Source: Candidatus Gastranaerophilales bacterium (lineage in GTDB: Bacteria > Cyanobacteriota > Vampirovibrionia > Gastranaerophilales > Gastranaerophilaceae). From it: a stretch of DNA of 33,450 bases. The notes under the pieces are model-generated. The model saw nothing but the letters and a program-made list of their open reading frames with translations, made no database searches and had not been told where the DNA came from. The stretch spans positions 1 to 33,450 of the forward strand of contig CALUVJ010000013.1 of assembly GCA_944324195.1 (NCBI GenBank). Direction: 5' to 3'. A program made the position numbers and the translations under genes. Positions 20,591 through 21,719 of the stretch are shown here, one piece after another. Each line of letters begins with the position of its first letter. Position 1 is the stretch's first letter.

Positions 20591-20631
20591 AAAAAAAGGG
20601 GCGGAGCCTTTCTGGCTCCGCCCCTTTTTTT
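20591..20631 (+). terminator. Strong rho-independent terminator of pheT
   Basis: A perfect 18-bp stem (seven A, GGGGCGGAGCC, complement, seven T) around a TTTCT loop starts 4 bases after the stop codon. It is the most stable terminator in the window. Confidence 0.93.
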
Positions 20632-20652
20632 GCAGAATGATTTATTAGGTGT

Positions 20653-20675: not shown

Positions 20676-21305
20676 ATGAAAAAAATTATAATTATTTTAT
20701 GTATGATGTTTTTGGCTTTGCCTGTCTTGGCGGATACAATGCCGTTTTATGTTGACAGTATTCCTAAAAATATTATCGGTTTATATCAGACGGGTGCAAA
20801 TATTACAATACTTTCTCATCCGGAAGCAAATTCTCAGGTTATAAAAAAATACGAATTTTCTTATAATCCGGAGACAATGCCTGACAATGTTTTTGCTGTT
20901 TTGATTAATGAAAAGAAACTCGGTTTTTTGTATGTTTCCGATATTGGTGATGAAGGCTGGGTTGAAGTAATTTATGATAAAAGAACCGGAGCAAAAGGGT
21001 GGGTCAAAACGGACGATAATATGCAGTTTCTACCGTGGCTCAATTTTTATAATATGTATGGCAGAAAGTATGGTTTACGTTTTATGAAAGACTCACCGGA
21101 TGAGTTGGAAATCTTGAAAGCAAAGAGTGAGGATTTATCTCAAACAGTTTCGACCTTAAGGTATGTAAAACAGATTCGTGTTACTGCAATCCGCGGTAAC
21201 TGGGCTCTGGTATCGGTTGTTGATGTAGATAAAACCCCGAAAATGGGTTATTTAAGGTGGAGAGGTGATGACGGCGCAATTTACGCTTTCCCGAATATTA
21301 AGTAG
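20676..21305 (+). CDS. Secreted protein with SH3-like domain
   Basis: 209 residues with a Sec signal peptide (MKKIIIILCMMFLALPVLAD, cleavage after VLA at about 19). The mature part starts like a bacterial SH3 domain: YQTGANITILSHPEANSQVIKKYEFS, then FLYVSDIGDEGWVEVIYDKRTGAKGWVKTDDN, the W-V-K-V-type strands of cell-wall SH3b modules. A second beta-rich unit (IRVTAIRGNWALVSVVDVDKTPKMGYLRWRGDDG, about 165-200) looks like another SH3-type repeat. It probably binds the cell wall or acts in the periplasm. No catalytic domain is present. It is monocistronic, between the pheT terminator and the repeat stack. Confidence 0.72.
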   Translation: MKKIIIILCMMFLALPVLADTMPFYVDSIPKNIIGLYQTGANITILSHPEANSQVIKKYEFSYNPETMPDNVFAVLINEKKLGFLYVSDIGDEGWVEVIYDKRTGAKGWVKTDDNMQFLPWLNFYNMYGRKYGLRFMKDSPDELEILKAKSEDLSQTVSTLRYVKQIRVTAIRGNWALVSVVDVDKTPKMGYLRWRGDDGAIYAFPNIK

Positions 21306-21326
21306 TTATGCTTACCGAAGTGCCAC

Positions 21327-21413
21327 GTCATTCTGAGTGCGGAAGCCCGAAGAATCTCTCAGAAAAGTTAAAGCGATTCTTCACCCCTGTATTGATATTG
21401 GGTTCAGAATGAC
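21327..21413. repeat. MITE-like palindromic element
   Basis: Terminal 10-base inverted repeats GTCATTCTGA (21327-21336) and TCAGAATGAC (21404-21413), and an inner 8-base pair GAAGAATC (21349-21356) and GATTCTTC (21375-21382), build an 87-base foldback element. Its words resemble widespread TCATTCTGA...GAAGAATCT dispersed repeats of bacterial genomes. No transposase is nearby. Confidence 0.65.
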
Positions 21414-21423
21414 AATTAGTTCT

Positions 21424-21500
21424 GTAGGATGCGGTAAATCATTGATTTACCGCATCAACAATATAAAATGTTTCGGTAATCAGAGATTACCAAAACCTAC
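21424..21500. repeat. Cloverleaf-like palindromic element
   Basis: GTAGG (21424-21428) and CCTAC (21496-21500) enclose two hairpins: a perfect 14-bp palindrome around one base (21428-21456, GATGCGGTAAATCA arm) and GGTAATC-AGA-GATTACC (21475-21491). The layout gives a three-way junction. Confidence 0.65.
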
Positions 21501-21510
21501 AAACTCCTAT

Positions 21511-21649
21511 TCACTATTCACCAGTCACTAATCTAATATATTTACCCCCTCAGTCACTTAATCACTTAGTCACTAAACCAATACATTTACCCCTTCTTTG
21601 CTTATAATCTTGTAGTCCTGCTTACCACTTAATACATTTACCCCCCCCC
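21511..21649. repeat. TCAC ladder and triple AATACATTTACCCC repeat before clpC
   Basis: TCAC recurs at 21511, 21518 and 21525 (7-base step) and at 21554, 21562 and 21570 (8-base step), matching the ladder at 571-598. Interleaved is AATA(C/T)ATTTACCCC at about 21535, 21580 and 21631. The number of C grows from 5 and 4 to 9 in the last copy (21641-21649), which touches the -35 box of clpC. Confidence 0.7.
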
Positions 21650-21678
21650 TTGAAAAAAGTACTGATTTTTTGTAATAT
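21650..21678 (+). promoter_or_regulatory. Promoter of clpC
   Basis: TTGAAA (21650-21655), 17 bases, TAATAT (21673-21678). The nine-C tract abuts the -35 box. The leader of about 35 bases carries AGAAGAGGAAA before the ATG at 21720. No CtsR-type heptamer repeat was seen. Confidence 0.6.
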
Positions 21679-21719
21679 AAACTTACATAAATATATTTAT
21701 AAGAAGAGGAAATTTTTAA

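Follow-up and report, generated by a model that had tools for sequence, protein, structure and literature searches.

Background

In Candidatus Gastranaerophilales bacterium, the clpC-like gene of a 33,450-nucleotide stretch of DNA (GenBank CALUVJ010000013.1, forward strand; the whole stretch is referred to as the window) is preceded by an intergenic gap crowded with short repeats, and the question raised by this locus is whether the gap holds one conserved functional element or a pile of separate insertions. A sequence-only reading had listed at positions 21306-21649 a foldback resembling miniature inverted-repeat transposable elements (MITEs), a cloverleaf palindrome, two TCAC ladders and a triple AATACATTTACCCC repeat, all of which are present, the first AATACATTTACCCC with a mismatch. 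It had taken them for different repeat families collecting in front of clpC, and had regarded base-for-base conservation across species as the sign of a functional RNA. Such conservation is not seen, as the gap differs between species in both content and length; repeat insertion is supported and a functional RNA is not, and we consider it very probable that small dispersed repeats were stacked up step by step in front of a clpC promoter that stayed intact.

Results and discussion

A stack of dispersed repeats in front of clpC

The gap comprises the foldback (family A), the cloverleaf (family B) and modules that end in a directional word of 14-16 bp, the R box (CCAATNCATTTACCCC), which is not an inverted repeat; the three AATACATTTACCCC boxes are the R boxes of Table 1. 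The modules include the TCAC ladders (21507-21533 and 21549-21573) and a unit termed M1. The claim of different families holds for the dispersed repeats piled up here, except that the ladder and the AATACATTTACCCC box, whose 45-bp stretch recurs as one unit, are one modular repeat family and not two. The stack ends at base 21649, immediately 5' of the -35 hexamer TTGAAA of clpC.

The window is contig C13 of assembly G000, a metagenome-assembled genome (MAG) of 1.84 Mb in 115 contigs that is 84% complete. Used as a query against this genome, the gap gave at least 75 matches, itself included (40 of the 172 initial candidates were scored), the strongest of the others having an E-value of 3.7e-35. 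Three copies of the R core (ATTTACCCC) were reached in none of 20,000 first-order Markov shuffles of the gap, and its seven TCACY words in one of 20,000. A comparison with phages and plasmids gave no match to 21300-21660 at an E-value of 1e-5.

The genus was represented by 34 genomes, that of the window included (one genome per species), and the clpC locus was obtained from 28 of them; 27 regions were kept, L023 (G003) having been dropped because its start motif was not found. With 414 bp, the window gap is the longest of the 23 that could be measured, the regions of G015, G016, G028 and G008 being without an upstream open reading frame (ORF) in the compared DNA. In nine named relatives 84-153 bp separate the same two genes, measured from the stop codon (of 33 loci compared, 18 lacked a clpC start downstream and 6 had more than 1.2 kb between the genes; L079 has a gap identical to that of L080 and L075 equals G002, so the nine records are not all independent). 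Among the 27 regions, the family B word occurs in the window gap alone, the family A arm words in the window gap and G015 alone, and exact R in nine, in eight of which it lies next to the promoter, while the promoter pattern itself is matched in 25 (the exceptions are G002 and G021). Blocks thus come and go among relatives, as had been anticipated: G029 has the same upstream gene followed by three M1/R units, without foldback A, cloverleaf B or ladder, and G019 has R units at the clpC promoter behind a different upstream gene. These two are the closest relatives of the window, and both have M1 modules capped by R at this promoter. In a tree of ClpC, G000, G019 and G029 are joined (support 100/98), with G002 as their sister (96/93); the gap of G002 measures 95 bp and has no R.

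The good folding of A and B would be accounted for if the gap were a structured leader or a conserved functional RNA that controls clpC. However, no folding is found for the ladders and R boxes, the stack is located 5' of the promoter, no Rfam match up to an E-value of 1 overlaps 21306-21719, and the variation of gap length and content between species already contradicts this explanation, which we regard as very improbable. An assembly artefact is scarcely credible: the assembly, a MAG, is split into 115 contigs and such repeats are often found at contig ends, but the gap lies inside a 33-kb contig, the independent assemblies G019 and G029 match its right part (the last M1/R unit and the promoter), and similar arrays occur within long contigs of G033.

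Stepwise stacking could have proceeded as follows. R modules would have arisen next to the -35 hexamer, on a TTTACCCC-like seed rich in C, in the ancestor of G000, G019 and G029; near-R words and C-tracts at the clpC promoter of other species suggest that this seed is native. Later, the window lineage would have gained a ladder-type R module, A and B, which may have split an M1 unit, leaving its left half at the start of the gap (Table 1). Growth of R arrays may occur through slippage or through template switching from one R box to another; no mobiliser was identified for A and the R modules. The stack may persist because the DNA just upstream of the -35 hexamer tolerates insertion.

Several observations weigh against this history. 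On the ClpC tree, R next to the clpC promoter (labelled by hand from the 27-region comparison) requires four changes, three of them forced by well supported branches, and its presence in separate branches may mean that the element is old and conserved, not that it was gained repeatedly. At L073:3627-3760, behind the orthologous 209-aa gene but without clpC following, an R box, an M1 half and an A-type arm occur, together with a B-like palindrome that lacks GTAG, in a different order; part of the stack could therefore predate the split, or the 3' side of the 209-aa gene may attract repeats. Neither target duplication nor, with one genome per species, within-species polymorphism was seen.

The R box caps unrelated modules

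Of the 208 exact copies of the R decamer (CATTTACCCC) in the window genome, 142 fall in the window plus 251,310 further bases, to which our own-genome statistics refer (100 of the 208 places are listed); these stretches were picked for holding the repeats and are not a random sample. Sorted by their upstream sequence, partly by eye, the 142 sites show R capping at least five unrelated module types, namely M1 (GTAG...ACCAACC), a GGGGCGAGGGG hairpin, a AGGGAGGG hairpin and two kinds of TCAC ladder, which have only their 3' box in common. M1 fills the G029 gap and is also recognisable in G019 and G033; no conserved hairpin is evident in its alignment when judged by eye, with no structure program run. 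R neighbours within 200 bp are on the same strand in 71 pairs and on opposite strands in 6. In 28 of the 71 same-strand pairs the spacing is 50-57 bp, roughly five helical turns, a frequent module length although the intervening modules are of unrelated types; the other 43 lie outside this range, and the peak was spotted post hoc in selected stretches.

R is mostly intergenic: 117 of the 142 sites lie outside ORFs of 100 aa, in DNA that makes up 20% of the compared bases. R-like words are also found in frame within ORFs, as GVNE/GVNQ repeats in G033 (L185) and G018 (L192) and as two copies reading GVNGVGVNG in an ORF of the window genome (L153). At many R sites (L051, L055, L056, L068) another GTAG-tagged palindrome (GTCAGGTAAAACCTGACCTAC) stands immediately 5' of the TCAC ladders.

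Could R be a regulatory site kept upstream of the clpC -35 hexamer rather than a spreading repeat? Its position directly 5' of the clpC promoter, in the same orientation, in 8 of 27 species, its occurrence on separate branches of the tree and the near-R words in other species would fit such a role. It is, however, missing beside clpC in 19 of the 27, its 208 genomic copies are tandem and mostly tied to a few modules, and its CCCC side points toward gene starts 59 times and toward gene ends 50 times, which makes this explanation unlikely. On the same nearly even orientation, R as an obligate promoter element was rejected.

The R box abounds in one genus of gut bacteria and in a few of its neighbour genera. 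The 208 copies in the window genome compare with 12 of the reversed word used as a control, and in the 33 other genomes of the genus 6-188 copies compare with 0-17, the decamer being raised in 32 of them (the exception is G006, with 6 versus 3). In 23 genomes of other genera the counts were at background (0-8 versus 0-8). Among 244 phylum-wide genomes, the decamer is raised in all 7 of the same genus, in 12 of the 14 of g23, and in g31 and g37, and most others are near control. Outliers occur among distant, larger genomes, such as two of other families (G172, 80 versus 16, with three copies spaced 72-91 bp; G291, 32 versus 7). A ranking of 10-mers over the loci of the 33 relatives was dominated by orthologous genes and contained R in just 2 copies in that sample. 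The range of 6 to 208 copies between species of one genus, with the clpC promoter intact, offers a natural experiment on the multiplication of a short word, and also bears on whether the DNA upstream of the -35 hexamer is a safe harbour.

A second locus and the question of a hotspot

That repeats are stacked in front of clpC is confirmed, but the clpC gap is not special as a collecting site: R and its companions occur in many intergenic regions. At a second locus (C7) of the window genome, two genes enclose five M1/R units, of which the first has a mismatch; the flanks are joined by TATTACTCCCCGATTGG in G002 and by CCTTTTACCCCTGCCC in G007. G002 thus shows an empty site of the kind that had been suggested for inspection. 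In G019 the upstream C7 gene is followed by a different mixture (A-type arms, a GTAG repetitive extragenic palindrome (REP) and a ladder), which is not the same gap since the downstream partner lies elsewhere on the contig.

A special insertion hotspot at clpC would be consistent with the fact that, among 20 A and 13 B copies in the own-genome stretches, those at clpC are the only ones with all families within 300 bp, that R or A words occur in no other of the 20 window gaps listed (taken from the window ORF list), and that the same upstream gene is trailed by such repeats in L073. Nevertheless, another family lies within 300 bp of 15 of the 20 A copies and 8 of the 13 B copies, R arrays fill other gaps such as C7, 208 R copies are spread over the genome and clpC gaps have no R in most relatives; a hotspot in this sense is improbable.

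The C7 locus also bears on a possible origin of the R modules as non-autonomous ends of IS200/IS605-type insertion sequences inserting after TTTAC. IS605 elements target TTTAC, the R box ends in TTTAC plus CCCC, and the native sites at C7 (G002 and G007) and clpC are TTTACCCC-like. However, PF07282 was found in one of 31 genomes, 19 of which belong to the genus, and PF01797 in none of G005, G014, G015 and G016, which have 39-100 R copies (MAGs 89-99% complete). Domain searches in the R-carrying genomes, partly incomplete MAGs, revealed no Y1 transposase or TnpB that would place R in the IS200/IS605 group. We consider this origin quite improbable, and movement of R by either IS605 or a REP-associated tyrosine transposase (RAYT) is not supported by R counts compared with domain searches across genomes.

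Relation of the R arrays to known mosaic repeats

The R arrays resemble the Neisseria intergenic mosaic elements (NIMEs), in which a dRS3 box, ATTCCC(N8)GGGAAT, stands between repeat sequence (RS) blocks (PMC3898611), in that a short common box, present in hundreds, alternates with unrelated intergenic blocks. They differ in that R is not palindromic and thus lacks the inverted dRS3 box, the arrays are directional, the sequence is unrelated and no link to a phage integrase was found (PMC3898611). Like the pneumococcal BOX, RUP and SPRITE repeats, they are modular with variable inner units, and their families cluster and insert into each other (PMC3049150). BOX elements have boxA at one end and boxC at the other, boxB units in between, and terminal inverted repeats (TIRs); no such fixed ends, TIRs or target duplications were seen in R modules, whose sequence is again unrelated (PMC3049150). 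R arrays fit no family found and appear to be a novel variant among the intergenic mosaic repeats. No earlier description of the R repeat was found, judged by the titles retrieved for the decamer and for Gastranaerophilales/Melainabacteria repeats, which is not proof that none exists.

A bolder possibility, which we entertain with considerable doubt, is that the arrays represent an undescribed repeat-propagating system, in which a directional box caps unrelated modules of similar length on TTTACCCC-like seeds, sometimes beside promoters, without the need for RAYT or IS605. If so, a mechanism able to measure length would be required, by way of copying, recombination or annealing, and the similar module length, if real, would point to such a ruler. 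To our knowledge, intergenic repeat stacks are known mostly from few cultured genera. Here a gut genus with genomes of about 2 Mb combines REPINs (hairpin-forming pairs of REPs) and their transposase with dimers of the CGTC-like kind and, apart from these, a directional box at the end of interchangeable modules.

Family B and the RAYT of the genome

The cloverleaf, present as had been described, can be identified more precisely as a RAYT-type REPIN. It contains two inverted repeats, one of 14 bp that is perfect and one of 12 bp at 92%, and folds with a z-score of -8.0; the unit extends over 77 bp from GTAG to CTAC, with two inverted, GTAG-tagged palindromes facing each other as one hairpin. 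The window genome holds 31 matches, fragments and single palindromes included, and all 12 matching genomes of 37 belong to the same genus. In 14 copies compared, flanks diverge past a few bases, with G or GG following CTAC in several. Pairing is kept through compensatory changes: in 11 copies, 94.9% of 315 cells are paired, and two pairs are altered on both sides, a number reached in 14 of 500 shuffles, with a covariation score reached in none, though a +3 slide also yields two such pairs and related copies can beat shuffles without structure.

One Y1 transposase (Y1_Tnp) was found in the window genome, at L071:2003-2533. NCBIfam model NF047646 identifies it as a RAYT (133.8 bits, cut-off 80), and its best solved relative is TnpA-REP (4er8, E-value 3.5e-21). 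A related REP lies just behind this gene, as a stretch of 62 bp that matches the window REPIN (78%) and begins 3 bp past the stop codon, and the same REP type stands behind the RAYT gene of G021. Thirty loci were compared, of which 13 had no ORF recognised by motif and L212 was a false positive; of the 16 recognised RAYT ORFs, 13 have GTAG palindromes at or inside them, 2 of these solely inside. Within the RAYT ORFs of four genomes (L071:2003-2533, L197, L199, L216) the same REP, GTAGGTTGGGGTTTCTACCCCAAC, is read in frame as NVGVETPTYGY at the same position, and in G021 (L216) the frame ends early after it.

RAYTs are HUH tyrosine transposases that elsewhere act on single-stranded GTAG hairpins, and by analogy with this literature the RAYT of its own genome is the most likely agent to have mobilised family B in trans (PMC3116915; PMC3733652). 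It shares with REPINs the inverted GTAG palindromes, the hairpin of about 70-80 bp, the location outside genes and the RAYT with a related REP (PMC3116915; PMC3733652). Its sequence is new, and it comes from a lineage without mention in the cited excerpts; family B is a new REPIN family.

Family A

Family A elements are about 88-94 bp long with inverted GTCATTCTGA arms; the window copy has perfect outer arms of 10 bp and a fold z-score of -2.7. With regard to the suggested likeness to MITEs, the foldback has inverted ends; target duplication is not evident in the compared flanks, and a parent transposase was not searched for. The element is better read as an inverted dimer that resembles CGTC-tagged REPs, with which it shares the tag, the dimeric arrangement and the outward orientation of tags (PMC3733652): 17 copies with an intact left end carry CGTC (13), TGTC (2) or AGTC (2). 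CGTC-tagged REPs have a continuous stem of 8-9 bp and a loop of 4-5 bases, whereas the units of family A are longer, and their stem is interrupted (ATTCT/AGAAT, mismatches, then a short inner stem) (PMC3733652). Matches, often to one arm alone, occur in 13 of 37 genomes, 6 of these outside the genus. Half an M1 unit precedes 7 of the 22 copies compared, the window copy included, as would be expected if A had inserted into M1 or if the two had spread together.

Features of the gap and its neighbourhood

Table 1. Positions of the clpC gap components and of the adjoining genes in the window
Feature	Position	Strand	Basis
209-aa ORF, upstream neighbour	20676..21305	+	ORF list, domain search, orthologues
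Left half of M1 unit (GTAGTTATGCTTACC), like 21612-21626	21302..21316	+	repeat search
Family A foldback, inverted dimer, GTCATTCTGA arms, CGTC-like	21327..21414	+	inverted-repeat, fold and copy comparison
Family B, REPIN, GTAG-palindrome and inverted palindrome-CTAC	21424..21500	+	fold and copy comparison
R module 1, TCAC ladder and one-mismatch R box (21534-21548)	21507..21548	+	repeat search
R module 2, 45 bp, TCACTTAA ladder and R box (21579-21593)	21549..21593	+	repeat search
R module 3, 51 bp, M1 unit (GTAG...CTTACC) and R box (21630-21644)	21594..21644	+	repeat search
clpC promoter, TTGAAA, 17-bp spacer, TAATAT	21650..21678	+	pattern matches 25/27 same-genus regions
Ribosome-binding site AAGAAGAGG	21701..21709	+	AGAAGAGG in 27/27 same-genus regions
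clpC-like gene, 828 aa	21720..24206	+	Clp_N, AAA, UVR motif

For the clpC-like protein, no NCBIfam model among the matches listed reaches its cut-off. Domain searches gave no known domain for the 209-aa ORF, whose orthologues are found mostly in Candidatus Gastranaerophilales records. Further upstream, a strong terminator-like hairpin with a T run follows a pheT-like gene at 20591-20633 and has many weak Rfam matches. Two further TCAC ladders, in mutually opposite orientation, are present at 487-514 and 566-599 of the window, in the gap (478-817) before the ORF that starts at 818.
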